Assembly: GCF_037975245.1 (NCBI RefSeq)
Contig: NC_092580.1
Span: 32,451,001-32,515,000, forward strand
Reading direction: 5' to 3'
Source: Apostichopus japonicus
Lineage: Eukaryota > Echinodermata > Holothuroidea > Aspidochirotida > Stichopodidae
Length of the DNA: 64,000 bases
The notes beneath the pieces were generated by a model that was not told the DNA's origin, ran no database searches, and saw only the letters and a program-made list of their open reading frames with translations. The translations under genes were made by a program, and so were the position numbers. This document shows positions 17,530 to 36,841 of this stretch, piece after piece; the stretch's first letter is position 1; each line of letters starts with the position of its first letter.

Positions 17530-20500
17530 CTGTGAAGAAGATAAAGACGATAAGAGAAATTTGTAAAAAGTCACATAATTTAATTTCAAGTGACAAACAT
17601 TTATAATCGAAAAAAAAAAATGATATAGCGCCACCCAAACTAGCATGTATACTGGCTGGCGGTACTTTCACTGTTTACAAAATAAGGTATCAACATATTA
17701 GCATAAGTGTGTCCTTGAAGAGCTAACAACGAATCAAAAAGGGTGCAATTGAATTCTATGTTGGTTTAGGTATGAAAATGTTTAGATCATTATATCGGAG
17801 CCCACCGTTCCAAACTACCCACCTAACCTTCCCACATGGCGGAATGCGAGCCCAAATATTCTTGTCAACTTCACCCAGGTAAAATGCCCACGGGAATCTT
17901 AAGTGGGCATGCTACCAGGAAGGTGGGGGAGGGGATTTATCAATGAGCATTAGCCTTCTGTAAAAAGCAAACCAATGAAAGGACTCAGGTATACTTGATT
18001 TGTAATGACCTGAATACAACAAACAGACTTATGTTTGTGATCATTAATTTACAGGAATAACTTTGAAGTATTTCTTCAATTTATATGCCCAAACATCTAT
18101 ACTACGTCATTAAAGTTGTTCCTATATAAATATATTCCCAACAAAGGATTGTAAATTTGATCAAACGCTGCTGCATGTCATATATATTTATAGTCATCCA
18201 AACGAGCATGATTCTTTACCACCATTCTTCTCAATCTTTTCTCTATAAGATTCACAAACTGGGTGAGAAACTGTTTTCTCATTTCCCCTACTCCAAATAT
18301 TTCTACAGAAACGTACGATCTATTTTGTTTATACCACTTTTTGCACATACTGTAATGGCGAACGTTGCCGATTCAATCAATGTTCATGATATCTGTTACG
18401 ATTCACTCTACAGTACACTAAGCAAAATGTTCATTGTCATCTGTAATCCTTGGTTATGGAATAATAACAGTAAAGCGTACGAGTGTTCAGTTCAATGATT
18501 AATGGGACCATTGAGCTTGATGCTCTTAAACAAGGGCCTTAATTACAAGGATTCAGCTTGGTTAATTTGAGAAATAAATCGCCAAAATGTATTACGTCAA
18601 GGCTACCACATTTCTTGGTTAGAATATCTGTAACAGCGCGCACGCACTCAACTATATAAGAAGAAGGCTATTGCCCCTGCCCCTCTAATACCCCACCCCC
18701 ATTAGAGGGGTCTACATGGACCCCGGTTGAGAAGAAATGCTTTACAAGTTAATTTGGGATAAAGGATCGCCCTCTTTTACCGAACTCGTTCTCTTTTATT
18801 CTTCTTTTTTATGTTTGTTTCTTTGTTTGTTTGGTTGTAACATTAAAAGACGTTCTGTTGAGATGCTTACTAGAAGGAACACCTTTATGGGAAATTTCAA
18901 GTCAGCCACAAGTGCTTACGGTTTTTATTCTCATCGATATTTTCCTTAATTACAACACACATCTGTTTCTACCAAGGCCTATGAGAGCATCTCAATAAGA
19001 CTTGCTGATAGTAAGCAGTGTAACACAAGGCTTATGTTATATAGGTATGGAAATCACGCTGAGTTTTGGACGGACCATTGTTAACCGATTTATCATGGGT
19101 CTATGTTTCTTATGGCTTCTGGCAGCAATATACAAATGCCTTTATCTACTGGCAAAACTTCGAAATCCACTGTCATACAGCTAGTAAATAACCCGAATTT
19201 CTAAACAGTGAGTGTTGAACCGTGAAATAAATCTGAACACGCATATACGGCATGTTCCAATTGAGCACGGTCCCGAACATAACCCTAATTCAGACTTTTG
19301 ACATGTATTCGAATGGTGATATGCGAAACGTATATCAGATCTCTTGTCGACCCTTTGGACAGGCACCATCGTACAAAGAAAACGACCGACCAACTCCCAA
19401 ATCTCCTCCAAATCCCCTCCGCCGTACCTCTTTTAACCTGAACCGGCAATATGCTTTTTTTCTTCCCGTTACAACACGAGATGCTTTACTCACGTTCTAA
19501 TAGATATGTCTCATCTTCAATAAGGTCAGGCTCTCCGCAATATTCTGGACTCTTGTTTGTTATCAGATTAATTTTCTCCAGTTTCTTGAGTATTTTGTTC
19601 TTGTCTTTGAAGATATGTTCCACTTTCACCGAGTAGTGGACCTCAAAATCACTCGGATTTGGCGGTGGGGTCAAAATTTTCATGTCCGGCAAATTCTTAT
19701 TATTTAATAATAGTTGTACAACCAAACGATTGTCAACGAGTGGAACCTCCTCTCTGGAAATGATCTTACCCTTAAACGCTAAATAAAAAAAATAAAATAA
19801 AAAAATGAAATATATAAGTAGCATATAACAATCAACAGACCTAGCACACAGAAATAACGTAAACTTTAATGGAAGAATTAAGTAGAGGCGCTATTCTGAA
19901 ATGAAAAGAAAAACATGATTTTATTTCATTCATTTTGTACGTAGCAAATAGAAAATGCAAGTTTAAAAGGAGTCAACGGATGGGAACATTCCCGTACCAT
20001 AATAAATAATCTCTTTGTGAACATGATATCCCTTTGATTATTTCAGGGCGGCAGATTGTACTTAGCCGATCATATTTCAGGAATCAGTTATTTCTTAGTT
20101 TTACATATATTCATAGTCATAATTTGACACAAACTATACGACCCATTTACAGGTTTCAAATTGTCGTTAGTGAGTGAACGATATACAATCGAAATTGAGT
20201 TCTTATATCTGATGATTCTGTTTTGAACCATTAAAACTAACGAGAAACTAGAAAGAGAACAGAGTGATGAAAATGCCACAGTAAATAGATTTGAGATTGG
20301 GTGAGCCAGTGAGTTCACCTTTCAGTACAAGAGAAAGACAAAAGGCGTCTGACTCAAGGAAATTTCCATATCCGAACATTCAGCCGGTAATCTGGGGTTT
20401 CTGATCTTCAAATGAAGGCGTGGGTTCGAATCCCACTTTTGACAATCTTTGTTTTATTAATATTTAATGCCATTTGTCGAAACAAACTTATCAATTTGCC

Positions 20501-23500
20501 ATTTATAAACGAGTGATACAAAAGCTAAATGAATAGTTTATCACGTTGTCAGGATGGCCGAGTGGTCTAAGGCGTCAGACTCAAGGTAAATTCCTTAGCT
20601 GTACATTCAGTCGGTAATCTGGGGTTTCTGATCTTCGAATGAAGGCGTGGGTTCGAATCCCACTTCTGACAAGTTCTTTTATTTAACATTTTATTGCCAT
20701 TTGTCGAAACGAACTTTACAATTTGCCATTTATAAACGAGTGATACAAATGCCAGAGGAATACTTTATCACGTTGTCAGGATGGCTGAGTGGTCTAAGGC
20801 GTCAGACTCAAGGTAAATTCCTTAGCTGTACATTCAGTCGGTAATCTGGGGTTTCTGATCTTCCAATGAAGGCGTGGGTTCGAATCCCACTTCTGACAAG
20901 TTCTTTTCTTTTACATTTTATTGCCATTTGTCGAAACGAACTTTACAATTTGCCATTTATAAACGAGTGATACAAATGCCAGAGGAATACTTTATCACGT
21001 TGTCAGGATGGCTGAGTGGTCTAAGGCGTCAGACTCAAGGTAAATTCCTTAGCTGTACATTCAGTCGGTAATCTGGGGTTTCTGATCTTCAAATGAAGGC
21101 GTGGGTTCGAATCCCACTTCTGACAAGTTCTTTTCTTTTACATTTTATTGCCATTTGTCGAAACGAATTTATCAATTTGCCATTTATAAACGAGTGATAC
21201 AAATGCTAGAGGAATAGTTTATCACATTGTCAGGATGGCCGAGTGGTCTAAGGCGTCAGACTCAAGGTAAATTCCTTAGCTGTACATTCAGTCGGTAATC
21301 TGGGGTTTCTGATCTTCGAATGAAGGCGTGGGTTCGAATCCCACTTCTGACAAGTTCTTTTATTTTACATTTTATTGCCATTTGTCGAAACGAACTTTTC
21401 AATTTGCCATTTATAAACGAGTGATACAAATGCCAGAGGAATAGTTTATCACATTGTCAGGATGGCCGAGTGGTCTAAGGCGTCAGACTCAAGGTAAATT
21501 CCTTAGCTGTACATTCAGTCGGTAATCTGGGGTTTCTGATCTTCCAATGAAGGCGTGGGTTCGAATCCCACTTCTGACAAGTCCTTTTATTTTCATTTTA
21601 TTGCCATTTGTCGAAACGAACTTTTCAATTTGCCATTTATAAACAAGTGATACAAATGCAAGAGGAATAGTTTATCACGTTGTCAGAATGGCCGAGTGGT
21701 CTAAGGCGTCAGACTCAAGGTAAATTCCTTAGCTGTACATTCAGTCGGTAATCTGGGGTTTCTGATCTTCGAATGAAGGCGTGGGTTCGAATCCCACTTC
21801 TGACAAGTTCTTTTATTTTACATTTTATTGCCATTTGTCGAAACGAATTTATCAATTTGCCATTTATAAACGAGTGATACAAATGCTAGAGGAATAGTTT
21901 ATCACGTTGTCTGGATGGCCGAGTGGTCTAAGGCGTCAGACTCAAGGTAAATTCCTTAGCTGTACATTCAGTCGGTAATCTGGGGTTTCTGATCTTCGAA
22001 TGAAGGCGTGGGTTCGAATCCCACTTCTGACAAGTTCTTTTATTTTACATTTTATTGCCATTTGTCGAAACGAATTTATCAATTTGCCATTTATAAACGA
22101 GTGATACAAATGCTAGAGGAATACTTTATCACATTGTCGGGATGGCCGAGTGGTCTAAGGCGTCAGACTCAAGGTAAATTCCTTAACTGTACATTCAGTC
22201 GGTAATCTGGGGTTTCTGATCTTCGAATGAAGGCGTGGGTTCGAATCCCACTTTTGACAAGTTCTTTTATTTTACATTATATTGCCATTTGTCGAAACGA
22301 ACTTTTCAATTTGCCATTTATAAACGAGTGATACAAATGCTAGAGGAATAGTTTATCACATTGTCAGAATGGCCGAGTGGTCTAAGGCGTCAGACTCAAG
22401 GTAAATTCCTTAGCTGTACATTCAGTCGGTAATCTGGGGTTTCTGATCTTCGAATGAAGGCGTGGGTTCGAATCCCACTTCTGACAATCTTTTTTTTATT
22501 ACATTTTATTGCCATTTGTCGAAACGAATTTATCAATTTGCCATTTATAAACGAGTGATACAAATGCCAGAGGAATAGTTTATCACATTGTCAGGATGGC
22601 CGAGTGGTCTAAGGCGTCAGACTCAAGGTAAATTCCTTAGCTGTACATTCAGTCGGTAATCTGGGGTTTCTGATCTTCGAATGAAGGCGTGGGTTCGAAT
22701 CCCACTTCTGACAAGTCCTTTCATGTTACATTTTATTGCCATTTGTCGAAAGGAACTTTTCAATTTGCCATTTATAAACGAGTGATACAAATGCTAGAGG
22801 AATAGTTTATCACATTGTCAGGATGGCCGAGTGGTCTAAGGCGTCAGACTCAAGGTAAATTCCTTAGCTGTACATTCAGTCGGTAATCTGGGGTTTCTGA
22901 TCTTCGAATGAAGGCGTGGGTTTGAATCCCACTTCTGACAAGTTCTTTTATTTTACATTTTATTGCCATTTGTCGAAACGAATTTATCAATTTGCCATTT
23001 ATAAACGAGTGATACAAATGCTAGAGGAATACTTTATCACATTGTCAGGATGGCCGAGTGGTCTAAGGCGTCAGACTCAAGGTAAATTCCTTAGCTGTAC
23101 ATTCAGTCGGTAATCTGGGGTTTCTGATCTTCGAATGAAGGCGTGGGTTCGAATCCCACTTCTGACAAGTTCTTTTATTTTACATTTTATTGCCATTTGT
23201 CGAAACGAATTTATCAATTTGCCATTTATAAACGAGTGATACAAATGCTAGAGGAATAGTTTATCACATTGTCTGGATGGCCGAGTGGTCTAAGGCGTCA
23301 GACTCAAGGTAAATTCCTTAGCTGTACATTCAGTCGGTAATCTGGAGTTTCTGATCTTCGAATGAAGGCGTGGGTTCGAATCCCACTTCTGACAAGTTCT
23401 TTTATTTTACATTTTGTTGCCATTTGTCGAAACGAACTTTTCAAATTGCCATTTATAAACGAGTGATACAAATGCTAGAGGAATAGTTTATCACGTTGTC

Positions 23501-26500
23501 TGGATGGCCGAGTGGTCTAAGGCGTCAGACTAAGGCGATGGCCTGACTGTACAATTCTTCAAAGTATTTTGGCGAAAATTCACTGACACTTTCGCAAAAC
23601 TTGTTATCGAAATTTTTCAGAATAATGAACTTTGTTCTTCTATGAGAACTGGAGTTTTAACTTTAATTCCTAAGAAAAATTATCTTAGTTGCCTTAATAA
23701 TAAGAGACCGATTTGTTTATTAAATACTGACTATAAAATCATTAGCAAGTCATTAGCAAATAGAGTTTAGAAAGTCATCTATAATATAGTTTCAAATGAT
23801 CAAACTTGTTGCATTCCAGGTCGTGATATTGCTGAGAATGTTTTAATTATGCAGAATATTATTAGCTATGTGAATGAAATAATTTAAATGGCTTGGCGCT
23901 CAAAATCGACCAATATAAAGCATTTGATAGGGTTGATCACACCTTTATTGATGACGTTCTGAAAAAATGGGTTTCGGCCCTAATTTTCGTATCTGGGTAA
24001 AGATTTTATATTACAACATTTATAGTTGCATTAAGCACAATTGCTTCATTTCTAAAGATTTTCCTATTCAGAGAGGAGTCCGTCAGGGTTGCCCATTATC
24101 AGCAATCCTATACGTTCTAAGCGCCGAGCCATTACATGCAAGAGATTACCAATTGTCCACTTATTTCAGGTATAAAATTTAGTGACATTGAGGTGAAATT
24201 GTTTCAGCATGCCGTTGACACAATTTTCTTTGTGTCCAGCATTACCAGTATTTATTCTATTTTTAAAGTGCTTCGACTCTATCAGGGGCGGGATTTGAGT
24301 TGTGAAAGTGGGGGGGGGGGCAAACCTGCCAGCAAGACTATCTGAGCGGAGCGCCACCATCGGTTGGCGCGGAGCGAAACAAGAAATTTTTTGGCTTTAC
24401 AAACCCTCCAGATGGCCGAAAACAGCACTTCCCGAGTGCTCTAAGCTGCATGTACCCATCCTTGAAATATGGATTTCATGTCTGCAATTGTATCTAGATT
24501 ATTTATCGTTTCAAAATTTGAAGAGGATTGATAGTAGAACATATGGTCAGATGGTGATGTACAACTTTTGTTATACGTCACTATCTAAGCGGAGAGCCAT
24601 CATCGGTTGGCAAGGAGCGTCGAAATTTTCGATGAAAGGTACCCTTACAATGGTAAAATTAACACCCATATAGGCTTTAAATTGCATCTAAACAATTAAT
24701 GAACTTGTGTAAATTTAGGGAGGACGTATAGAAGAACTTATATGGTGATGTACAACTGAAGCTTATACGTCACTATTTAGGCGGTGCACCACCATCAGTC
24801 GAAATTTAAGCAAAAAGGAAATCCTAGATCAGCAAAAATGACACCTCTGGTAACAATAAATCGCATCTAGACAGTTCTTTCCCCCTAAAATTATTAGTAT
24901 ATTGTGCATTGGACCGATCAAGAATATGTTCAGCACCCACTTCGAAATTCTCCCCGCGGTCGCCACTTCTTGGAGCACTTGGCAAATATTGGGGGCTGAA
25001 CATAACTTTACCCCCCCCCCCACTTTTATCATGGGGGATAAGCCCCTCAAGTCCACCGGTTCCGTCGCCACTGAAGTCGAGGCGGGTGACTTTTTGGATT
25101 TTACAATGCGACTAGGTGCAACATGGAGCAATATTTACAGGTCATTTCATAGTACTGGCTGAGATTTTGAAAATGAAATTATTACCTGGCAGTACCAGAA
25201 TTATGTTTGAACTATTGCCAGATTATCAGGCAACATAGAAATGCATAATAAATAGTTGAATCAACATACGTCAGTTTTTCAGGAAAGAAATCGTGTGCAA
25301 GAAATTACCTTTTATGCAAAACCAAACGTACGTGTTTCATTCATCATCGAGAATAGATCCGAAAACGGAACTCAAAGCCACACATTATTTTATCGGCCCT
25401 ACCGAAACTGCCGAGTGCTGTATACCTAACAATGGATTTAATGTGTTAGTGTTATTGCCAATTTGTAATTTACATTATTCGATTTGCATGCATCATTCCA
25501 GGATTTCGAGCAGTAGGAGAAATTATATCGGCATTGCCATTGCATATTGTTGAATGACACGGGGGGGGGGGGGTGTCATGTGTCAGTGTATTGAATTTAA
25601 TTATTGATATACCCAATATGCAAATCTGGCTTTCGTAAATCGTTTCTCTGGATTTAGTTATTCAACGCATTCAGTAGAGCAGCAACGTTGAAAATCAATT
25701 CCTGAAGCTAGCACTGTAGCACATGCAGCGGATTCATCACATGCAGAATTGAATCGCTAGTGTGTTAGCTCCAGGATTCGTAACCTGTGCTGCGAACCAT
25801 GTGCTAGCTCCAGCTCCAGTTATTCTGCATGCTACCTGTTACGATGTTAAACACAAATTTCGACTTAGATTCAGAAACAAATAGGCCTATTTGATAGAGC
25901 TGTTGTGGGGGAATAATTTCGATTAGGGTTGTGCACATTTGTCTGCAAAAACGACAAAAAAGTGAACTAAGGTCTGGGAAAAAGTGGGGGGGGGGGGCAA
26001 ATGCCCCCTCTTGCCCCCGTAATCCCGCCCATGGACTCTATCAATATGCATCTGGTTCCAAGTGCAACCTGGACAAAACCGAGCTTTAATCTTTGGGAAT
26101 TCCCAAATTAATTGTCATGAGTACAACAGAGTGTTGACAGAAACTGTTAATTGGAAAGATAAAGTGAATAAGTGCAGTTTATTACTACGTCGCTGGAAGG
26201 GCCGTGACTTATCCTTCAGAGGTAAATCGATTATCGTTATTTCTAGACTTGTTTATCTCATCACTGTTCTTCCAACCCCTGACTGGGTTATTACGACTAT
26301 GCGTGAAAGTATTTTAGATTTTATTTGGCGCAGCAAGAAGAGCCCCATCAAATATTCCACCCTATTGTTACCGCATGAGAAAGGAGGTCTTAATTTAAGA
26401 GATATAGAAATTGTTCGTGATGCTATTAGAATTAAATTCATAAGTAAAATGTTAAATGGTACATTAAATATTAATCTTAAGAAACTAATGTTATACTGTT

Positions 26501-29500
26501 TGAATCACTACGAAAACATGAACCTTGATGTGAGTATTTTCCAGATCATTCCTAATAGCAAATCACTTTCATCCATTCAGCCTTTTTATCGCGAAATGTT
26601 GTTCGCCTGGAATAAAATTACCAACGGCCACTTCTGTGACCCTTTAACTAGAGAGGATATTTTATTCCAACCCTTGTTCCATAATCCCCTCAAGTTCGTG
26701 ACGCTAATGGCACAACTCTTTTTAATCGTTGCTTTATTGAAGGTGGGATCAGTAGAGTAAGCGATCTGAGATTATCCCGGCTCAATTACCGGCTGCAGCA
26801 GTGCATGAGTGCATCACTTTAACTAACCCCGATAATCCGATTTCTTTGAACGACGTCGAGGGTTACATCAGGGAGTTGTTATGGAATAACAACTCCCTGG
26901 TTACATCAACACTATTATTTATGCCTTACCTGAAGAGTGGCTAGTCGATATTTATTATTCAGACAAAGTTGTGTCCTCACACCCGGAAGTTGCGTGTATT
27001 ATTACTTTTGTTAACGGCGCCGACACTATCAATGCGTGTGATATTTCCTGCAAACAAGCCACTTTTCTACTTCGCACTAAGCTTGACTGCACACCAACCG
27101 GTGAATTACATTGGAGCAAGGTGTATGGTGACATTTGTTTAAATAGTAGATGGAAAAATATTTACAAACCTCCAAAAAGCTTTTATGATGCCGACATTGA
27201 CTTCAAGATAATGCACAATATTTTGTATACCAATGTTAGTTTATTCAAATTTAATATATTAGATTCGCCTTTATGCACATTTTTGTAAAGCTACCAATGA
27301 AACTATGACTCACCTATTTATCGACTGTTGTAAAGTCAACCCTCTCTGGAGTCACTTATTCAATAAATTGAATAAAATTATGCATATAATTAATTTGTAT
27401 AGTAATCTTGACAAGAATAGTACCTGTGTCGGGGTTTTCCTGGACCTCTCAAAGGTCTTTGACACAATGGACCACACAATTCTGCTTAATAAATTACACC
27501 GTTACGGCATAAGAGGAACCCCCCTAAATTGGATCGACAGTTACTTAGCAAACCGCTACCATACATCCTACAAAAATGCTCATTCCCAACCGGAGAGAAT
27601 TCAGTGTGATGTGCCACAAGGCTCTATACTTGGTCCATTGCTTTTTATCCTATATGTCAATGACATAACCAATGTTTCTGATAAAGTTAAAGTTGTTTTG
27701 TTTGCTGACGACACAAATATTTTCTTCGTATCACAATCGAGAACTTTATTTCATATTGAAGTATCAACTGAATTAGACAAGTTCAGCGACTGGTTCGCTG
27801 GCAACAAATTATCATTGAATATTGATAAAACATATAGTTTTTAAAACTTCTAAAAATTTTACATGGAATGCTGATATTACTATTGGTGGTAAACGGCTAC
27901 AAGTCAATAGTACTAGATTTTTAGGCGTATATATAGATCATGAACTTAAATGGTGTGACCACATTACAACTGTCTGTAAAAAAAGTTGCAAAAAACACCG
28001 GTGTTTTAGCTAAGCTTAAGCATTATCTGCCACAGCACATTTTAAAGATTCTCTATCAGACATTAGTCCAGCCACATATTAGTAATGTTGTAACATATGG
28101 TCTGGTACTAGATATACCAATCTGAATCCCATTTGTATTACACAGAAGAGAGCAGTCCGCCATATAACACATGCCAAACCACGGGACCACACAAATCCTC
28201 TTTTTAAGCGCTCTAAGTTGTTAAAAACTGATGACATTATTAGGGTTAACCTTGCTACATTTGCTTATAAGGCATGGAAAGGACTGTTACCAAATGCTTT
28301 TAATGACTACTTAATATGTAACAGTGATATTCATCATTACAATACCAGATTTTCAGGCAATGCAAATTATAACAGGTATAATTCTACAATGGGGATGTTA
28401 TCACTGAGGGCACGTACAATCAAAACATGGAATTCTTTATCAGACGATATTACAAATAAACCTTCTGCAAAAACATTCAGAAGAAACTTTATTCTAAAAA
28501 TTGTTGCATCTTATTAATTGAACATGTTCATATTTTCTTATATATTTAGTTTACTTTTTCCTTTTCTTTACAGGGAGTCCTCTACTTTGTTAAGCCATCT
28601 GAAGGTTTTTTAGAGGACTTCCTATCACATTGTATATATTCACGAGATAAAACAAATAAATCAATTAATCAATTTGTCGAAACGAACTTTTCAGTTTGCC
28701 ATTTATAAACGAGTAATACAAATGCTAGAGGAATAGTTTATCACGTTGTCAGGATGGCCGAGTGGTCTAAGGCGTCAGACTCAAGGTAAATTCCTTAGCT
28801 GTACATTCAGTCGGTAATCTGGGGTTTCTGATCTTCGAATGAAGGCGTGGGTTCGAATCCCACTTCTGACAATCTTTTTTTTATTACATTTTATTGCCAT
28901 TTGTCGAAACGAACTTTTCAATTTGCCATTTATAAATGAGTGATACAAATGCTAGATGAATAGTTTATCACATTGTCAGGATGGCCGAGTGGTCTAAGGC
29001 GTCAGACTCAAGGTAAATTCCTTAGCTGTACATTCAGTCGGTAATCTGGGGTTTCTGATCTTCGAATGAAGGCGTGGGTTCGAATCCCACTTTTGACAAG
29101 TTCTTTTATTTTACATTATATTGCCATTTGTCGAAACGAACTTTTCAATTTGCCATTTATAAACGAGTGATACAAATGCTAGAGGAATAGTTTATCACAT
29201 TGTCAGGATGGCCGAGTGGTCTAAGGCGTCAGACTCAAGGTAAATTCCTTAGCTGTACATTCAGTCGGTAATCTGGGGTTTCTGATCTTCGAATGAAGGC
29301 GTGGGTTCGAATCCCACTTCTGACAAGTTCTTTTATTTTACATTATATTGCCATTTGTCGAAACGAACTTTTCAAATTGCCATTTATAAACGAGTGATAC
29401 AAATGCCAGAGGAATAGTTTATCACATTGTCAGGATGGCCGAGTGGTCTAAGGCGTCAGACTCAAGGTAAATTCCTTAGCTGTACATTCAGTCGGTAATC

Positions 29501-32500
29501 TGGGGTTTCTGATCTTCGAATGAAGGCGTGGGTTCGAATCCCACTTCTGACAAGTTCTTTTATTTTACATTATATTGCCATTTGTCGAAACGAACTTTTC
29601 AATTTGCCATTTATAAACGAGTGATACAAATGCTAGAGGAATAGTTTATCACATTGTCAGGATGGCCGAGTGGTCTAAGGCGTCAGACTCAAGGTAAATT
29701 CCTTAGCTGTACATTCAGTCGGTAATCTGGGGTTTCTGATCTTCGAATGAAGGCGTGGGTTCGAATCCCACTTCTGACAAGTTCTTTTTTATTACATCTT
29801 ATTGCCATTTGTCGAAACGAAGTTTTCCATTTGTCATTTATAAACGAGTGATACAAATGCCAGAGGAATACTTTATCACGTTGTCAGGATGGCCGAGTGG
29901 TCTAAGGCGTCAGACTCAAGGTAAATTCCTTAGCTGTACATTCAGTCGGTAATCTGGGGTTTCTGATCTTCGAATGAAGGCGTGGGTTCGAATCCCACTT
30001 CTGACAAGTTCTTTTATTTTACATTATATTGCCATTTGTCGAAAGGAACTTTTCAATTTGCCATTTATAAACGAGTGATACAAATGCTAGAGGAATAGTT
30101 TATCACATTGTCAGGATGGCCGAGTGGTCTAAGGCGTTAGACTCAAGGTAAATTCCTTAGCTGTACATTCAGTCGGTAATCTGAGGTTTCTGATCTTCGA
30201 ATGAAGGCGTGGGTTCGAATCCCACTTCTGACAAGTTCTTTTATTTTACATTATATTGCCATTTGTCGAAACGAACTTTTCAATTTGCCATTTATAAACG
30301 AGTAATACAAATGCTAGAGGAATAGTTTATCACGTTGTCAGGATGGCCGAGTGGTCTAAGGCGTCAGACTCAAGGTAAATTCCTTAGCTGTACATTCAGT
30401 CGGTAATCTGGGGTTTCTGATCTTCGAATGAAGGCGTGGGTTCGAATCCCACTTCTGACAATCTTTTTTTTATTACATTTTATTGCCATTTGTCGAAACG
30501 AACTTTTCAAATTGCCATTTATAAACGAGTGATACAAATGATAGAGGAATAGTTTATCACATTGTCAGGATGGCCGAGTGGTCTAAGGCGTCAGACTCAA
30601 GGTAAATTCCTTAGCTGTACATTCAGTCGGTAATCTGGGGTTTCTGATCTTCGATTGAAGGCGTGGGTTCGAATCCCACTTCTGACAAGTTCTTTTATTT
30701 TACATTTTATTGCCATTTGTCGAAACGAACTTTTCAATTTGCCATTTATAAATGAGTGATACAAATGCTAGATGAATAGTTTATCACATTGTCAGGATGG
30801 CCGAGTGGTCTAAGGCGTCAGACTCAAGGTAAATTCCTTAGCTGTACATTCAGTCGGTAATCTGGGGTTTCTGATCTTCGAATGAAGGCGTGGGTTCGAA
30901 TCCCACTTCTGACAAGTTCTTTTATTTTACATTATATTGCCATTTGTCGAAAGGAACTTTTCAATTTGCCATTTATAAACGAGTGATACAAATGCTAGAG
31001 GAATAGTTTATCACATTGTCAGGATGGCCGAGTGGTCTAAGGCGTCAGACTCAAGGTAAATTCCTTAGCTGTACATTCAGTCGGTAATCTGGGGTTTCTG
31101 ATCTTCGAATGAAGGCGTGGGTTCGAATCCCACTTCTGACAAGTTCTTTTTTATAACATCTTATTGCCATTTGTCGAAACGAAGTTTTCCATTTGTCATT
31201 TATAAACGAGTGATACAAATGCCAGAGGAATAGTTTATCACGTTGTCAGGATGGCCGAGTGGTCTAAGGCGTCAGACTCAAGGTAAATTCCTTAGCTGTA
31301 CATTCAGTCGGTAATCTGGGGTTTCTGATCTTCGAATGAAGGCGTGGGTTCGAATCCCACTTCTGACAAGTTCTTTTATTTTACATTATATTGCCATTTG
31401 TCGAAAGGAACTTTTCAATTTGCCATTTATAAACGAGTGATACAAATGCCAGAGGAATAGTTTATCAAATTGTCAGGATGGCCGAGTGGTCTAAGGCGTC
31501 AGACTCAAGGTAAATTCCTTAGCTGTACATTCAGTCGGTAATCTGGAGTTTCTGATCTTCGAATGAAGGCGTGGGTTCGAATCCCACTTCTGACAAGTTC
31601 TTTTATTTTACATTATATTGCCATTTGTCGAAACGAACTTTTCAATTTGCCATTTATAAACGAGTGATACAAATGCTAGAGGAATTGTTTATCACATTGT
31701 CAGGATGGCCGAGTGGTCTAAGGCGTTACACTCAAGGTAAATTCCTTAGCTGTACATTCAGTCGGTAATCTGGGGTTTCTGATCTTCGAATGAAGGCGTG
31801 GGTTCGAATCCCACTTCTGACAATCTTTTTTTTATTACATTTTATTGCCATTTGTCGAAACGAACTTTTCAATTTGCCATTTATAAACGAGTGATACAAA
31901 TGCTAGAGGAATTGTTTATCACATTGTCAGGATGGCCGAGTGGTCTAAGGCGTCAGACTCAAGGTAAATTCCTTAGCTGTACATTCAGTCGGTAATCTGG
32001 GGTTTCTGATCTTCGAATGAAGGCGTGGGTTCGAATCCCACTTCTGACAAGTTCTTTTTTATTACATCTTATTGCCATTTGTCGAAACGAAGTTTTCCAT
32101 TTGTCATTTATAAACGAGTGATACAAATGCCAGAGGAATAGTTTATCACGTTGTCAGGATGGCCGAGTGGTCTAAGGCGTCAGACTCAAGGTAAATTCCT
32201 TAGCTGTACATTCAGTCGGTAATCTGGGGTTTCTGATCTTCGAATGAAGGCGTGGGTTCGAATCCCACTTCTGACAAGTTCTTTTATTTTACATTATATT
32301 GCCATTTGTCGAAACGAACTTTTCAATTTGCCATTTATAAACGAGTGATACAAATGCCAGAGGAATAGTTTATCACATTGTCAGGATGGCCGAGTGGTCT
32401 AAGGCGTTAGACTCAAGGTAAATTCCTTAGCTGTACATTCAGTCGGTAATCTGGGGTTTCTGATCTTCGAATGAAGGCGTGGGTTCGAATCCCACTTCTG

Positions 32501-35500
32501 ACAAGTTCTTTTATTTTACATTATATTGCCATTTGTCGAAAGGAACTTTTCAATTTGCCATTTATAAACGAGTAATACAAATGCTAGAGGAATAGTTTAT
32601 CACGTTGTCAGGATGGCCGAGTGGTCTAAGGCGTCAGACTCAAGGTAAATTCCTTAGCTGTACATTCAGTCGGTAATCTGGGGTTTCTGATCTTCGAATG
32701 AAGGCGTGGGTTCGAATCCCACTTCTGACAATCTTTTTTTTATTACATTTTATTGCCATTTGTCGAAACGAACTTTTCAAATTGCCATTATAAACGAGTG
32801 ATACAAATGATAGAGGAATAGTTTATCACATTGTCAGGATGGCCGAGTGGTCTAAGGCGTCAGACTCAAGGTAAATTCCTTAGCTGTACATTCAGTCGGT
32901 AATCTGGGGTTTCTGATCTTCGATTGAAGGCGTGGGTTCGAATCTCACTTCTGACAAGTTCTTTTATTTTACATTTTATTGCCATTTGTCGAAACGAACT
33001 TTTCAATTTGCCATTTATAAATGAGTGATACAAATGCTAGATGAATAGTTTATCACATTGTCAGGATGGCCGAGTGGTCTAAGGCGTCAGACTCAAGGTA
33101 AATTCCTTAGCTGTACATTCAGTCGGTAATCTGGGGTTTCTGATCTTCGAATGAAGGCGTGGGTTCGAATCCCACTTCTGACAAGTTCTTTTATTTTACA
33201 TTATATTGCCATTTGTCGAAACGAACTTTTCAATTTGCCATTTATAAACGAGTGATACAAATGTTAGAGGAATAGTTTATCACATTGTCAGGATGGCCGA
33301 GTGGTCTAAGGCGTCAGACTCAAGGTAAATTCCTTAGCTGTACATTCAGTCGGTAATCTGGGGTTTCTGATCTTCGAATGAAGGCGTGGGTTCGAATCCC
33401 ACTTCTGACAAGTTCTTTTTTATTACATCTTATTGCCATTTGTCGAAACGAAGTTTTCCATTTGTCATTTATAAACGAGTGATACAAATGCCAGAGGAAT
33501 AGTTTATCACGTTGTCAGGATGGCCGAGTGGTCTAAGGCGTCAGACTCAAGGTAAATTCCTTAGCTGTACATTCAGTCGGTAATCTGGGGTTTCTGATCT
33601 TCGAATGAAGGCGTGGGTTCGAATCCCACTTCTGACAATCTTTTTTTTATTACATTTTATTGCCATTTGTCGAAACGAACTTTTCAAATTGCCATTATAA
33701 ACGAGTGATACAAATGATAGAGGAATAGTTTATCACATTGTCAGGATGGCCGAGTGGTCTAAGGCGTCAGACTCAAGGTAAATTCCTTAGCTGTACATTC
33801 AGTCGGTAATCTGGGGTTTCTGATCTTCGATTGAAGGCGTGGGTTCGAATCTCACTTCTGACAAGTTCTTTTATTTTACATTTTATTGCCATTTGTCGAA
33901 ACGAACTTTTCAATTTGCCATTTATAAATGAGTGATACAAATGCTAGATGAATAGTTTATCACATTGTCAGGATGGCCGAGTGGTCTAAGGCGTCAGACT
34001 CAAGGTAAATTCCTTAGCTGTACATTCAGTCGGTAATCTGGGGTTTCTGATCTTCGAATGAAGGCGTGGGTTCGAATCCCACTTCTGACAAGTTCTTTTA
34101 TTTTACATTATATTGCCATTTGTCGAAACGAACTTTTCAATTTGCCATTTATAAACGAGTGATACAAATGTTAGAGGAATAGTTTATCACATTGTCAGGA
34201 TGGCCGAGTGGTCTAAGGCGTCAGACTCAAGGTAAATTCCTTAGCTGTACATTCAGTCGGTAATCTGGGGTTTCTGATCTTCGAATGAAGGCGTGGGTTC
34301 GAATCCCACTTCTGACAAGTTCTTTTTTATTACATCTTATTGCCATTTGTCGAAACGAAGTTTTCCATTTGTCATTTATAAACGAGTGATACAAATGCCA
34401 GAGGAATAGTTTATCACGTTGTCAGGATGGCCGAGTGGTCTAAGGCGTCAGACTCAAGGTAAATTCCTTAGCTGTACATTCAGTCGGTAATCTGGGGTTT
34501 CTGATCTTCGAATGAAGGCGTGGGTTCGAATCCCACTTCTGACAAGTTCTTTTATTTTACATTATATTGCCATTTGTCGAAAGGAACTTTTCAATTTGCC
34601 ATTTATAAACGAGTCATACAAATGCAAGAGGAATAGTTTATCACATTGTCAGGATGTCCGAGTGGTCTAAGGCGTCAGACTCAAGGTAAATTCCTTAGCT
34701 GTACATTCAGTCGGTAATCTGGAGTTTCTGATCTTCGAATGAAGGCGTGGGTTCGAATCCCACTTCTGACAAGTTCTTTTATTTTACATTATATTGCCAT
34801 TTGTCGAAACGAAGTTTTCCATTTGTCATTTATAAACGAGTGATACAAATGCTAGAGGAATAGTTTATCACATTGTCAGGATGGCCGAGTGGTCTAAGGC
34901 GTCAGACTCAAGGTAAATTCCTTAGCTGTACATTCAGTCGGTAATCTGGGGTTTCTGATCTTCGAATGAAGGCGTGGGTTCGAATCCCACTTCTGACAAG
35001 TTCTTTTATTTTACATTTTATTGCCATTTGTCGAAACGAACTTTTCAATTTGCCATTTATAAACGAGTGATACAATTGCAGGAATAGTTTATCACGTTGT
35101 CAGGATAGCCGAGTGGTCTAAGGCGTCAGACTCAAGGTAAATTCCTTAGCTGTACATTCAGTCGGTAATCTGGAGTTTCTGATCTTCGAATGAAGGCGTG
35201 GGTTCGAATCCCACTTCTGACAATCTTTTTTTTTTACATCTTTTTGCCATTTATCGAAACGAACTTTTCAATTTGTCATTTATAAACGAGTGATACAAAT
35301 TCTAGAGGAATGGTTTTTCACGTTGTCAGGATGGCCGAGTGGTCTAAGGCGTCAGACTCAAGGTAAATTCTTTAACTGTACATTCAGTCGGTAATCTGGG
35401 GTTTCTGATCTTCGAATGAAGGCGTGGGTTCGAATCCCACTTCTGACAAGTTCTTTTTTATTACATCTTATTGCCATTTGTCGAAACGAAGTTTTCAATA

Positions 35501-36841
35501 TGCCATTTATAAACGAGTGATACAAACGCTAGAGGAATAGTTTATCACATTGTCAGGATGGCCGAGTGGTCTAAGGCGTCAGACTCAAGGTAAATTCCTT
35601 AGCTGTACATTCAGTATCTGGAGTTTCTGATCTTCGAATGAAGGCGTGGGTTCGAATCCCACTTCTGACAAGTTCTTTTTTATTACATCTTATTGCCATT
35701 TGTCGAAACGAAGTTTTCCATTTGTCATTTATAAACGAGTGATACAAAAGCTAAATGAATAGTTTATCACGTTGTCAGGATGGCCGAGTGGTCTAAGGCG
35801 TCAGACTCAAGGTAAATTCCTTAGCTGTACATTCAGTCGGTAATCTGGGGTTTCTGATCTTCGAATGAAGGCGTGGGTTCGAATCCCACTTCTGACAAGT
35901 TCTTTAATTTGACATTATATTGCCATTTGTCGAAACGAACTTTTCAATTTGCCATTTATAAACGAGTTATACAAATGTTAGAGGAATAGTTTATCACGTT
36001 GTCAGGATGGCCGAGTGGTCTAAGGCGTCAGACTCAAGGTAAATTCCTTAGCTGTACATTCGGTCGGTAATCTGGGGTTTCTGATCTTCGAATGAAGGCG
36101 TGGGTTCGAATCCCACTTCTGGCAATTTTTTTTTTATTACATCTTATTGCCATTTGTCGAAACGAACTTTTCAATTGTCATTTATAAACGAGTTATACAA
36201 ATGCCAGATGAATATGTTATCACATTGTCAGGATGGCCGAGTGGTCTAAGGCGTCAGACTCAAGGTAAATTCCTTAACTGTACATTCAGTCGGTAATCTG
36301 GGGTTTCTGATCTTCAAATGAAGGCGTGGGTTCGAATCCCACTTCTGACAATTTTTTTTTTTATAACATTTTATTGCCATTTGACATAACGAAGTAATCA
36401 AATTGTAAATAGTTTGAAAGAAAGATTGAGTTGCTTATGGTTTAACACAGTTGTGTGTAGTGTCTATTTAGTAACATAACGTTAAATATGCTTTATTTTT
36501 CATTTCCTAATATTCCATATTGCTTTTATATGTTATGTGCCTTGTCTTCTTGTAACCTTACCATCCGAAGGAGTCCACCACTGGCCTAAGATTTTTAAAT
36601 AGTTTTGTCTATTATCTTATGTAGGCTCAAGACTCTTATTTCTAATGATAATTATATCTTGTGAACTATCAATATCAGTTATTAGTTATCAATATGGGAA
36701 ATCGAATGACTCACCTAAATGGCAATTGCAGAATTTTTCAACCAAAGAATCCTCTTTTCCGATGCATTGACAGGCTGCAGAGAGGTGCAGAGACACCGCG
36801 ACCATTGTTACAGAAAAGAACCAAATAGATGACGCCATCAT
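17399..36841 (-). CDS. TIMP/tensilin-like secreted inhibitor, three exons
   Basis: Spliced on the minus strand, three exons give about 168 residues with matching phases (1 and 1). A signal peptide ([18 protein letters not shown]...SAA) is followed directly by mature CQC, and then by KFCNC. The N-terminal Cys-x-Cys is the metal-chelating hallmark of tissue inhibitors of metalloproteinases. The rest follows the netrin-like fold of the family: [11 protein letters not shown], a [10 protein letters not shown] strand, YCGEPD, YLLE, then [11 protein letters not shown]. Sea cucumbers have TIMP-like tensilins that stiffen collagenous tissue, so that role is possible. The protein stops after the N-terminal domain, shorter than two-domain TIMPs (about 200 residues or more). 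A further exon after a possible GAGA|GTATAC donor in exon 3 cannot be excluded. Intron 1 is about 16.9 kb and contains the tRNA-Leu array. Confidence 0.8.
17530..19493. other. TIMP-like intron 2
   Basis: No second gene is supported in this 2-kb intron. The plus-strand frame at 18157-18498 (113 codons) has no recognised domain. Confidence 0.5.
19494..19778 (-). CDS. TIMP-like exon 2, netrin-like core
   Basis: The exon has acceptor TTTATTTAG and donor GAAC|GTGAGT, phase 1 to phase 1. It encodes [48 protein letters not shown], matching the order of TIMP strands and the conserved CG pair. Confidence 0.85.
20341..20444 (+). pseudogene. 5'-degenerate tRNA-Leu repeat, array edge
   Basis: From AAGGCGTCTGACTCAAGG the sequence follows the array tRNA and its intron to TCCCACTTTTGACA. 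The acceptor stem 5' strand and most of the D arm are not recognisable, and the intron has several changes. It marks the left edge of the array. Confidence 0.8.
20548..20671 (+). tRNA. tRNA-Leu(CAA), copy 1
   Basis: The acceptor arm GTCAGGA pairs with TTCTGAC. The D arm is GGCCGAGTGGTCTAAGGC, the anticodon stem TCAGA/TCTGA encloses CTCAAG, and a 40-nt intron (GTAAATTCC...CTGGGGT) follows position 37. The long variable arm (TCTTCGAATGAAGG) is that of a type II tRNA-Leu, and the T arm is GTGGGTTCGAATCCCAC. The 5' exon closely matches animal intron-containing tRNA-Leu(CAA). Copies below share this structure unless noted. Confidence 0.96.
20775..20898 (+). tRNA. tRNA-Leu(CAA), copy 2
   Basis: D arm variant GGCTGAG; variable loop TTCCAATGAA. 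Confidence 0.94.
21002..21125 (+). tRNA. tRNA-Leu(CAA), copy 3
   Basis: D arm variant GGCTGAG; variable loop TTCAAATGAA. Confidence 0.94.
21229..21352 (+). tRNA. tRNA-Leu(CAA), copy 4
   Basis: Consensus copy. Confidence 0.96.
21456..21579 (+). tRNA. tRNA-Leu(CAA), copy 5
   Basis: Variable loop TTCCAATGAA; otherwise consensus. Confidence 0.95.
21682..21805 (+). tRNA. tRNA-Leu(CAA), copy 6
   Basis: Acceptor start GTCAGAA turns a G-U pair into A-U. Confidence 0.95.
21909..22032 (+). tRNA. tRNA-Leu(CAA), copy 7
   Basis: Acceptor start GTCTGGA gives one stem mismatch at pair 4-69. Confidence 0.9.
22136..22259 (+). tRNA. tRNA-Leu(CAA), copy 8
   Basis: Acceptor start GTCGGGA with 3' strand TTTTGAC; two wobble-type acceptor pairs. 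The intron reads CCTTAACTG. Confidence 0.9.
22363..22486 (+). tRNA. tRNA-Leu(CAA), copy 9
   Basis: Acceptor start GTCAGAA as in copy 6; long T-run terminator directly downstream. Confidence 0.95.
22590..22713 (+). tRNA. tRNA-Leu(CAA), copy 10
   Basis: Consensus copy. Confidence 0.96.
22817..22940 (+). tRNA. tRNA-Leu(CAA), copy 11
   Basis: T loop reads GGTTTGAATCC, changing the invariant C of the B box, so transcription may be weaker. Confidence 0.88.
23044..23167 (+). tRNA. tRNA-Leu(CAA), copy 12
   Basis: Consensus copy. Confidence 0.96.
23271..23394 (+). tRNA. tRNA-Leu(CAA), copy 13
   Basis: Acceptor start GTCTGGA; intron end CTGGAGT. Confidence 0.9.
23498..23531 (+). pseudogene. tRNA-Leu(CAA) copy 14, cut by retrotransposon
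   Basis: The tRNA runs from GTCTGGATGG to GCGTCAGACT and then joins Tx1/L1-type ORF2 sequence just before the anticodon. The 3' half of this unit is missing. Confidence 0.9.
23532..24282 (+). mobile_element. Tx1/L1-type retrotransposon ORF2 fragment, 5' part
   Basis: Broken frames read [60 protein letters not shown] and [14 protein letters not shown], the reverse transcriptase blocks of L1-group elements. There is an internal stop after LANRV and a frameshift near 23885, so it is dead. It starts at the PG-x-DG region and so lacks the endonuclease. The segment is joined directly to a truncated tRNA-Leu and is interrupted at 24282 by a hAT element. Confidence 0.88.
24283..26033. mobile_element. 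Non-autonomous hAT-type element with 8-bp TSD
   Basis: The left end CAGGGGCGGGATT and right end AATCCCGCCCATG are inverted repeats. They are flanked by GACTCTAT at 24275-24282 and 26034-26041. Removing the element restores the ORF2 reading frame on both sides ([18 protein letters not shown]). The interior carries TGGCGCGGAGCG modules like those of the 9.9-12.0 kb element, in the opposite orientation. No transposase is seen. Confidence 0.87.
26042..27418 (+). mobile_element. Tx1/L1-type retrotransposon ORF2 fragment, 3' part
   Basis: The reading continues after the hAT element with [11 protein letters not shown], then [38 protein letters not shown] and [20 protein letters not shown], the post-RT region of L1-group ORF2. 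Near the end [19 protein letters not shown] is the Cys/His region. There are frameshifts near 26760 and 27290. The fragment is cut at about 27418 by a second retrotransposon. Confidence 0.88.
27419..28671 (+). mobile_element. CR1/L2-type (Jockey-superfamily) retrotransposon, 5'-truncated
   Basis: The reverse transcriptase starts mid-domain: [20 protein letters not shown], then [18 protein letters not shown], then FADDTNIF (the catalytic ADD) and [10 protein letters not shown]. After a frameshift near 27840 the tail continues in two further frames ([34 protein letters not shown]). The 3' end is an AACAAATAAATCAATTAATC tail that abuts the tRNA array spacer. It is 5'-truncated and non-coding overall. 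Confidence 0.87.
28748..28871 (+). tRNA. tRNA-Leu(CAA), copy 15
   Basis: Consensus copy, first after the insertion; T8 terminator. Confidence 0.96.
28975..29098 (+). tRNA. tRNA-Leu(CAA), copy 16
   Basis: Acceptor 3' strand TTTTGAC gives one extra G-U pair. Confidence 0.94.
29202..29325 (+). tRNA. tRNA-Leu(CAA), copy 17
   Basis: Consensus copy. Confidence 0.96.
29429..29552 (+). tRNA. tRNA-Leu(CAA), copy 18
   Basis: Consensus copy. Confidence 0.96.
29656..29779 (+). tRNA. tRNA-Leu(CAA), copy 19
   Basis: Consensus copy. Confidence 0.96.
29883..30006 (+). tRNA. tRNA-Leu(CAA), copy 20
   Basis: Consensus copy. Confidence 0.96.
30110..30233 (+). tRNA. tRNA-Leu(CAA), copy 21
   Basis: Anticodon stem 5' strand TTAGA (one G-U pair with TCTGA becomes U-G); intron end CTGAGGT. 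Confidence 0.92.
30337..30460 (+). tRNA. tRNA-Leu(CAA), copy 22
   Basis: Consensus copy with T8 terminator. Confidence 0.96.
30564..30687 (+). tRNA. tRNA-Leu(CAA), copy 23
   Basis: Variable loop TTCGATTGAA. Confidence 0.95.
30791..30914 (+). tRNA. tRNA-Leu(CAA), copy 24
   Basis: Consensus copy. Confidence 0.96.
31018..31141 (+). tRNA. tRNA-Leu(CAA), copy 25
   Basis: Consensus copy. Confidence 0.96.
31245..31368 (+). tRNA. tRNA-Leu(CAA), copy 26
   Basis: Consensus copy. Confidence 0.96.
31472..31595 (+). tRNA. tRNA-Leu(CAA), copy 27
   Basis: Intron end CTGGAGT; otherwise consensus. Confidence 0.95.
31699..31822 (+). tRNA. tRNA-Leu(CAA), copy 28, weakened anticodon stem
   Basis: The 5' exon reads GCGTTACACTCAAG, so the anticodon stem TTACA no longer pairs fully with TCTGA. 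Likely impaired or a pseudogene. Confidence 0.75.
31926..32049 (+). tRNA. tRNA-Leu(CAA), copy 29
   Basis: Consensus copy. Confidence 0.96.
32153..32276 (+). tRNA. tRNA-Leu(CAA), copy 30
   Basis: Consensus copy. Confidence 0.96.
32380..32503 (+). tRNA. tRNA-Leu(CAA), copy 31
   Basis: Anticodon stem TTAGA as in copy 21. Confidence 0.93.
32607..32730 (+). tRNA. tRNA-Leu(CAA), copy 32
   Basis: Consensus copy with T8 terminator. Confidence 0.96.
32833..32956 (+). tRNA. tRNA-Leu(CAA), copy 33
   Basis: Variable loop TTCGATTGAA; T stem 3' strand CTCAC gives one G-U type pair. Confidence 0.93.
33060..33183 (+). tRNA. tRNA-Leu(CAA), copy 34
   Basis: Consensus copy. Confidence 0.96.
33287..33410 (+). 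tRNA. tRNA-Leu(CAA), copy 35
   Basis: Consensus copy. Confidence 0.96.
33514..33637 (+). tRNA. tRNA-Leu(CAA), copy 36
   Basis: Consensus copy. Confidence 0.96.
33740..33863 (+). tRNA. tRNA-Leu(CAA), copy 37
   Basis: Same two variants as copy 33 (TTCGATTGAA, CTCAC). Confidence 0.93.
33967..34090 (+). tRNA. tRNA-Leu(CAA), copy 38
   Basis: Consensus copy. Confidence 0.96.
34194..34317 (+). tRNA. tRNA-Leu(CAA), copy 39
   Basis: Consensus copy. Confidence 0.96.
34421..34544 (+). tRNA. tRNA-Leu(CAA), copy 40
   Basis: Consensus copy. Confidence 0.96.
34648..34771 (+). tRNA. tRNA-Leu(CAA), copy 41
   Basis: D arm reads GGATGTCCGAG, a change in the A box; intron end CTGGAGT. Confidence 0.9.
34875..34998 (+). 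tRNA. tRNA-Leu(CAA), copy 42
   Basis: Consensus copy. Confidence 0.96.
35099..35222 (+). tRNA. tRNA-Leu(CAA), copy 43
   Basis: D arm reads GGATAGCCGAG; intron end CTGGAGT; the preceding spacer is 3 bp shorter. Confidence 0.9.
35325..35448 (+). tRNA. tRNA-Leu(CAA), copy 44
   Basis: Intron variants only (ATTCTTTAACTG). Confidence 0.95.
35552..35670 (+). tRNA. tRNA-Leu(CAA), copy 45, short intron
   Basis: The intron lacks five bases (ATTCAGTATCTGGAGT), giving 35 nt; exons are consensus. Confidence 0.92.
35774..35897 (+). tRNA. tRNA-Leu(CAA), copy 46
   Basis: Consensus copy. Confidence 0.96.
36001..36124 (+). tRNA. tRNA-Leu(CAA), copy 47
   Basis: Acceptor 3' strand TTCTGGC gives a U-G pair at position 2-71. 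Confidence 0.92.
36227..36350 (+). tRNA. tRNA-Leu(CAA), copy 48, last copy
   Basis: Intron reads CCTTAACTG and variable loop TTCAAATGAA; a T-rich terminator follows. The spacer decays shortly downstream, marking the right edge of the array. Confidence 0.95.
36715..36841 (-). CDS. TIMP-like exon 1, signal peptide and CxC
   Basis: The exon starts at the tandem ATGs (MMASSIWFF); an upstream in-frame ATG at 36910 would bury the signal peptide. Cleavage before CQC leaves the reactive Cys at the N-terminus. The donor ATTTAG|GTGAGT is strong and leaves phase 1. Confidence 0.82.

Follow-up and report, generated by a model that had tools for sequence, protein, structure and literature searches.

The 64,000-nucleotide window of the Apostichopus japonicus genome considered here (the whole stretch of DNA that was analysed, G000:C20:32451001-32515000) raises the question of why nearly all the genes found for one animal's UUG-reading tRNA lie at one locus, apparently inside another gene, and whether they are used genes or a passive satellite. 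Positions 20000-37000 were searched with the Rfam tRNA model, which revealed 47 matches between 20548 and 36350 and no others; all are on the plus strand and score 40.1-52.2 bits, the gathering score being 29. An earlier note on this DNA had described 47 full-length, intron-containing tRNA-Leu(CAA) genes on the plus strand, and its count, isotype and strand were right (47/47 by Rfam). The head-to-tail spacing of 227 bp that it gave also held, with 38 of the 45 copy-to-copy distances inside two blocks at exactly 227 bp and the other seven at 222-226 bp. Block 1 contains 13 full-length tRNA-Leu(CAA) genes (20548-23394, plus strand), identified by Rfam, spacing and ARAGORN, and block 2 contains 34 with their spacers (28672-36383, plus strand, genes at 28748-36350). 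The edge of the array is formed by a 5'-truncated first copy on the same strand (20342-20444) that lacks the first ~21 nt and matches unit positions 22-227 at 88%. The tRNA-array observation is correct and well supported.

The two blocks are divided by a nested retroelement insert of 5.1 kb (~23535-28671, plus strand), which follows copy 13 and splits the array 13 + 34. This insert had been missed and the array taken as an unbroken 16 kb; the tRNA units occupy ~11 kb of the 16-kb span, the remainder including the insert. The copy at 23498-23534 (plus strand) was interrupted by it in the anticodon stem. The left part of the insert appears reverse-transcriptase-like by eye only and was matched by no family. 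The middle (24275-26043) is an element of ~1.75 kb with G-rich and C-rich ends, lying between perfect 10-bp repeats GACTCTATCA at 24275 and 26034. The right part is a LINE piece with an RVT_1 domain at 27263-27841 (Pfam, 6e-24). Pfam gave no match for the insert frames at 26023-26757 and 28086-28514, and the reading frames of the insert are interrupted.

A false expansion or misplacement of the array during assembly is very improbable. Tandem repeats are difficult to assemble, and the mean PacBio HiFi read of 14.7 kb (PMC10344927) is shorter than the 16-kb whole, yet it exceeds the length of each block (3.2 and 7.7 kb), and 41 of the 47 units are distinct. The HiFi assembly of this species is reported as 671.60 Mb in 34 scaffolds and 23 chromosomes (PMC10344927); the genome-wide searches made here covered 671,581,487 bases in 35 contigs.

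The isotype of the genes was examined using ARAGORN. When run without introns the program found 0 genes in the array, and with introns it found 47, of which one was labelled Leu(CAA) and 46 were labelled Thr(CGT) with a 31-nt intron. The Thr(CGT) label was rejected as a wrong placement of the intron. Leu(CAA) was preferred because two solo genes elsewhere in the genome, with the same exon 1 except for one base, were called Leu(caa) by ARAGORN, and because a long variable arm is also present. The array genes form a cloverleaf with this long variable arm, matching the tRNA model. The tRNA-Leu(CAA) class is defined by an intron after position 37 together with a 4-bp pairing between anticodon and intron, and this pairing (AAGG with CCTT) is possible in 46 of the 47 array introns. 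RNA folding gave weak signals for three precursors (z -1.66 to -1.95), the first of which had a minimum-energy fold other than a cloverleaf.

The individual copies are well preserved. The mature tRNA is 84 nt and is identical in 27 of the 47 copies, the intron is 40 nt in 46 copies and 35 nt in one, and the anticodon region ACTCAAGGT is the same throughout (47/47). All 24 checked stem pairs are kept in 43 copies, a pair being broken in units 7, 13, 27 and 40, and the B-box core is altered in one copy (unit 11), leaving 42 of 47 with neither fault. The commonest A box occurs in 43 copies and the commonest B box in 44, with milder box changes in a few more copies. A run of at least four T begins no more than 6 nt past the gene end in 45 copies; in one of the other two it begins at nt 18, and in the other there is none within 30 nt. 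The earlier statement that stems, boxes and T-run terminators are kept was thus accurate.

A 30-base Leu(CAA) pattern allowing up to 2 mismatches gave 50 matches across the genome: 47 are the array genes, one is the copy interrupted by the insert, and the last two are the solo genes, on contigs C18 and C20. The array therefore holds 47 of the 49 intact Leu(CAA) 5' halves. Isotype counts given here are based on 5'-half patterns with 0-3 mismatches, by which genes may be missed, and the whole-genome Rfam tRNA search scored the best 63 of 55,204 candidates and is hence not a full tRNA census. Compared with the commonest array type, the solo genes are changed at 5 and 3 of the 84 positions; both appear intact and carry T-runs. 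One difference is common to both, as position 16 is T in 47/47 array copies and C in both solo genes. In the variable arm of the C18 solo gene, positions 48 and 55 are changed as a pair. A 4-bp anticodon-intron helix is possible in all three types (AAGG/CCTT, AAGG/CCTT and AAGT/ACTT), the C18 gene being altered on both sides of it (AAGT/ACTT). The array intron is about as uniform as the exons, yet much diverged from the introns of the solo genes.

An origin of the array as a tRNA-derived SINE or other mobile unit set in tandem was considered, given that tRNA-like repeat heads are common genome-wide (597 pattern matches). Against this, the gene retains its anticodon, intron and terminator. A SINE would also be expected as scattered copies, each with a tail and a body of non-tRNA sequence; among the 76 unit matches from the best-scored candidates, just one outside the array, a 108-bp fragment on C10, included most of the spacer. 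On these matches a SINE origin is extremely improbable and was rejected. The C10 fragment (G000:C10:7406918-7407025) comprises a tRNA 3' half plus spacer and matches the array unit at 88%. The repeat head occurs in short tandem runs at ~165 bp in G000:C7:21836507-24025411, and among the 100 of its matches that were listed (C1 to C7) most are dispersed.

The distribution of variants within the array bears on whether the genes are used. Per-site diversity was lowest in the exons (0.012-0.014) and the intron (0.016), higher in the spacer (0.057) and highest in the terminator region (0.14). The exons contain 15 variants, all of low frequency (at most 3 of 46 copies) and 0 commoner, while the spacer (unit positions 146-227) contains 35, of which 23 are of low frequency and 12 are commoner, reaching a maximum of 16 copies. 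This difference in the split of low and common variants between exon and spacer was significant (Fisher p 0.0099). Per site, the two regions did not differ significantly in low-frequency variants (p 0.28), evidence against a contrast caused by mutation rate alone. The intron contains four rare variants and one present in 5 copies. When the exon mask was rotated round the unit, 4 of 227 positions, the true one counted among them, were as good, in a test for which p cannot fall under 1/227; the intron mask was unremarkable alone (98/227). The last unit was omitted from the variant-frequency, rotation, insert-differentiation and block-2 lag analyses because its spacer passes into unique sequence, and was kept for the gene half of the diversity analysis. 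Majority-gap columns were omitted from the variant-frequency, rotation and array-comparison or lag analyses.

The same comparison was made for two other tRNA arrays of this genome. In the Leu(CAG) array (19 units) the gene contains 3 low-frequency and 0 common variants and the spacer 23 and 26, respectively. In the Lys array (52 units) there are 13 low-frequency and 6 common variants in 73 gene sites and 20 and 31 in 101 spacer sites, and its smaller plus-strand part (13 units) gave 5 and 5 in 73 gene sites and 13 and 20 in 95 spacer sites. The Lys array thus repeats the contrast between gene and spacer more weakly than the Leu(CAG) array, and its common gene variants count against the selection reading. 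In the Leu arrays exon variants arise yet fail to spread, as expected if many copies matter.

Turnover of the array was also evident. Two blocks of four units (units 31-34 and 35-38) at 32607-34420 on the plus strand are identical over 907 bp, a recent segmental duplication that indicates recent turnover by unequal exchange. Higher-order repeats were otherwise scarce: in block 2 identical pairs made up 5 of 29 at lag 4, with one each at lags 6 and 10, and block 1 gave no identical lagged pairs. The insert was considered as a barrier to homogenisation and rejected, as the units flanking it are not differentiated (0.9661 and 0.9577 within the two sides, 0.9579 between them). Other split points, from unit 5 to unit 41, were compared as well, and the last of them, toward the 3' end of the array, separated the units most strongly. 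Undifferentiated units on both sides are hard to square with the interrupted reading frames of the insert.

From these patterns the array tRNAs look to be under selection while the array itself turns over by unequal exchange. The best explanation, given a probability of about 0.68, is that the locus is a functional tandem family, amplified in an intron and kept by selection, which serves as the main genomic source of UUG-reading tRNA-Leu(CAA). A passive satellite, spread by unequal exchange only, with most copies silent and the two solo genes doing the work, is improbable. It would fit the recent exact block duplication and satellite-like turnover, the solo genes with their apparently intact sequence and T-runs, and an intron no less uniform than the exons; it also has a model in the SYY cluster of Arabidopsis, which is silenced in most tissues (PMC12308677). 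Pure turnover would, however, give common variants in exons and spacer alike, whereas such variants are present in the spacer and absent from the exons. The earlier note had left dosage and a passive satellite side by side, and the two are now partly separated, the rarity of gene-body variants beside common spacer variants favouring selected, used genes. Since the exons are hardly more uniform than the intron, homogenisation could be responsible for some of this likeness between copies. In yeast and human, C34 of tRNA-Leu(CAA) is methylated only when the intron is present (PMC11408192), a requirement that would account for constraint on the array intron.

The array apparently lies within a 16.9-kb intron of a minus-strand TIMP/NTR-like gene, as judged from the predicted exons on either side. 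Exon 1 (36715-36841, minus strand) has a signal-peptide-like start, the residues CQC...FCNCHL and a donor G|GTGAGT, and exon 2 (19494-19778, minus strand) has an acceptor TTTAG and a donor GTGAGT. A possible exon 3 with a stop codon (18178-18302, minus strand) is weak and did not raise the TIMP score. Intron 1 (19779-36714, minus strand) would be 16,936 bp, of which the array and insert make up 16,043 bp, leaving 893 bp without them. The N-terminal TIMP motif, which is joined to the inhibitor domain, is CxC...FC. In the putative protein the motif CQC...FCNCHLAFKGKI runs uninterrupted over the exon junction and contains the N-terminal CxC...FC pattern.

The alternative that the exons at 36.7 kb and 19.5 kb belong to different genes or to a pseudogene, which would make the array intergenic, is a separate question from that of function and was judged rather unlikely. 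The donor of exon 1 and the acceptor of exon 2 are both phase 1, the motif is joined without a gap, and either exon matches only one place in the whole genome. Joining the exons also raised the TIMP score by 9 bits, from 11.4 bits for exon 2 alone (exon 1 alone gave no match) to 20.4 bits, or 20.1 bits with exon 3. The scores nevertheless remain under the Pfam cut-offs, at 20.1-20.4 against 23.1 bits for TIMP (PF00965, profile match over residues 23-136 or 23-137) and 20.4-21.1 against 21.9 bits for NTR. Because both are below cut-off the host is called TIMP/NTR-like only; the earlier model of a TIMP-like gene with the array in its intron 1 is upheld at the level of sequence. The doubtful exon 3, and a PDB search in which no credible relative of the host protein was found, also lean toward separate exons. 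Divergent TIMPs are described as abundant in holothurians (PMC4807446). A published A. japonicus census lists 1,032 tRNA genes, 116 of them Leu, and places 49 of the 1,032 loci in introns, calling tRNAs devoid from intronic regions (PMC8580430), a depletion that would also favour an intergenic array. That census used an earlier assembly, and the present array may or may not be among its 49 intronic loci. To the right of the array, window positions 58268-59313 on the plus strand contain exons of a Rab-GAP TBC domain, one above and one below the Pfam cut-off, and positions 59806-61036 contain a 99-bp tandem repeat of 12.6 copies that also has a 389-bp period.

A functional tandem family could have formed in the following way. 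A Leu(CAA) gene would have been present in a small (~0.9 kb) intron of the opposite-strand TIMP/NTR-like gene, and the gene plus its spacer would then have been amplified locally through unequal exchange. The short intron probably contained the tRNA gene before amplification began. Unequal exchange may still be adding and homogenising blocks of units, with selection on the tRNA stopping exon variants from spreading. Most copies would remain transcribable by Pol III via their internal A and B boxes, ending at their own T-run. On this model the copies are presumably transcribed, their dosage would be the advantage, and the host gene would tolerate the array. If the array fires, it could also work against transcription of the TIMP/NTR-like gene by Pol II.

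At least six further arrays of tRNA genes for one amino acid are present in this genome, for Leu(CAG), Lys, Gly, Glu, Ala and Asp. The Leu(CAG) array (C15:25021888-25026930) has 20 genes within a 9-kb stretch, and the Lys(TTT) array (C3:17760905-17776764) has at least 71 genes in two stretches. The Lys(TTT) array switches strand (C3:17763200-17766400), with 14 copies on the plus strand, a gap, then the minus strand and the plus strand again near 17776350. Two Gly(GCC) arrays (C11:12390935-12405061 and 18990043-18992540) account for 39 of 42 pattern matches. The Glu array (C15:23416500-23424000) contains 9 of 9 pattern matches and has 23 genes of two mixed anticodons, TTC and CTC, in one stretch. 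An Ala array with several anticodons (C5:9023993-9040941) contains 87 of 91 matches and an Asp array (C17:32072997-32097927) all 55 of 55 within 25 kb, both judged from 5' halves only. Leu(AAG) and Leu(TAG) genes are single or in small, looser groups, and the one Val pattern gave 2 matches genome-wide and no array. Masked arrays as the cause of the low published Val count (one gene) are therefore unsupported. This genome thus tends to keep tRNA genes in single-type arrays, although not for every isotype examined (Leu, Lys, Gly, Glu, Ala, Asp and Val). With six or more others present the Leu(CAA) array is itself ordinary here, and its intronic antisense site is the unusual feature.

The arrays and solo genes may form a two-tier system, in which arrays, one of them antisense within an intron of a matrix regulator, would provide special isodecoders to the growing egg and early embryo, and the body tissues would rely on isolated genes of other isodecoders. 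This tentative division of labour, which was thought unlikely on present comparisons, would refine the functional tandem family and does not exclude it. It is suggested by T16 in every array copy against C16 in both solo genes, and array and solo isodecoders differ also for Leu(CAG) (one solo gene examined), Lys(TTT) (both of two examined) and, in two of three solo genes, Gly(GCC). The two examined Lys solo types are absent from the array stretches compared, and array-type Leu(CAG) copies occur additionally in two small groups at C15:26.9 Mb. In zebrafish, highly repetitive regions are reported as the source of bona fide maternally deposited tRNAs and isolated copies as that of later ones; Leu-CAA is one of the types that switch (PMC11417395). 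Against the idea, the remaining Gly solo gene is an array type, an isolated Ala match (C5) and a group of three on C17 are the same as the commonest array type across the 33 nt compared, and Asp and Glu have no solo gene at up to 3 mismatches.

The single base at position 16 of mature tRNA-Leu(CAA), T16 or C16, separates the two sources and makes the two-tier idea testable by tRNA sequencing, so that maternal and somatic tRNA sets become testable in an echinoderm via a diagnostic base. The array is also a natural test of how tandem tRNA genes stay functional while remaining uniform, and of whether one intron can accommodate units of both Pol III and Pol II. Its antisense position in an intron merits follow-up, as does the two-tier isodecoder pattern.

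The array belongs to a known kind, the homogeneous tRNA clusters. Bermudez-Santana et al. (2010, PMC2888827) described such tDNA clusters as tRNA genes for the same amino acid less than 1000 nt apart and mostly parallel, which hold 65% of the tRNA genes and pseudogenes of zebrafish and 87% of those of stickleback. The terms "sea urchin" and "Strongylocentrotus" have no occurrence in the main text of that paper, nor "tandem" and "cluster" in that of the A. japonicus census (PMC8580430), and no description of sea cucumber tRNA arrays was found in the titles and abstract openings of the open-licence papers that the literature searches listed. The present genes, 222-227 bp from a neighbour of the same family, fall within the 1000-nt rule, by which the 5.1-kb insert makes the array count as two clusters. 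They share with the published clusters the close, parallel arrangement of same-amino-acid genes, and differ in being a single isodecoder lineage with 47 copies in one place and in their apparent site in an intron of an opposite-strand gene. The tRNA regions of zebrafish chromosome 4 (PMC11417395) are similar in that repetitive genes and isolated isodecoders of the same isotype occur in both animals; maternal use is reported for the zebrafish regions, and the likeness of the sea cucumber is one of genomic arrangement only. The SYY and tRNA-Cys clusters of Arabidopsis (PMC12308677, PMC10701932) are also built of tandem tRNA units, although SYY consists of Ser and Tyr genes and intersects heterochromatin (PMC12308677) and the tRNA-Cys cluster has four genes (PMC10701932). 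The human tRNA VNTR at 1q23.3 is a tandem tRNA repeat too, with 9-43 units per allele, and differs in its 7.3-kb units and its proposed role as a boundary element (PMC4041453).
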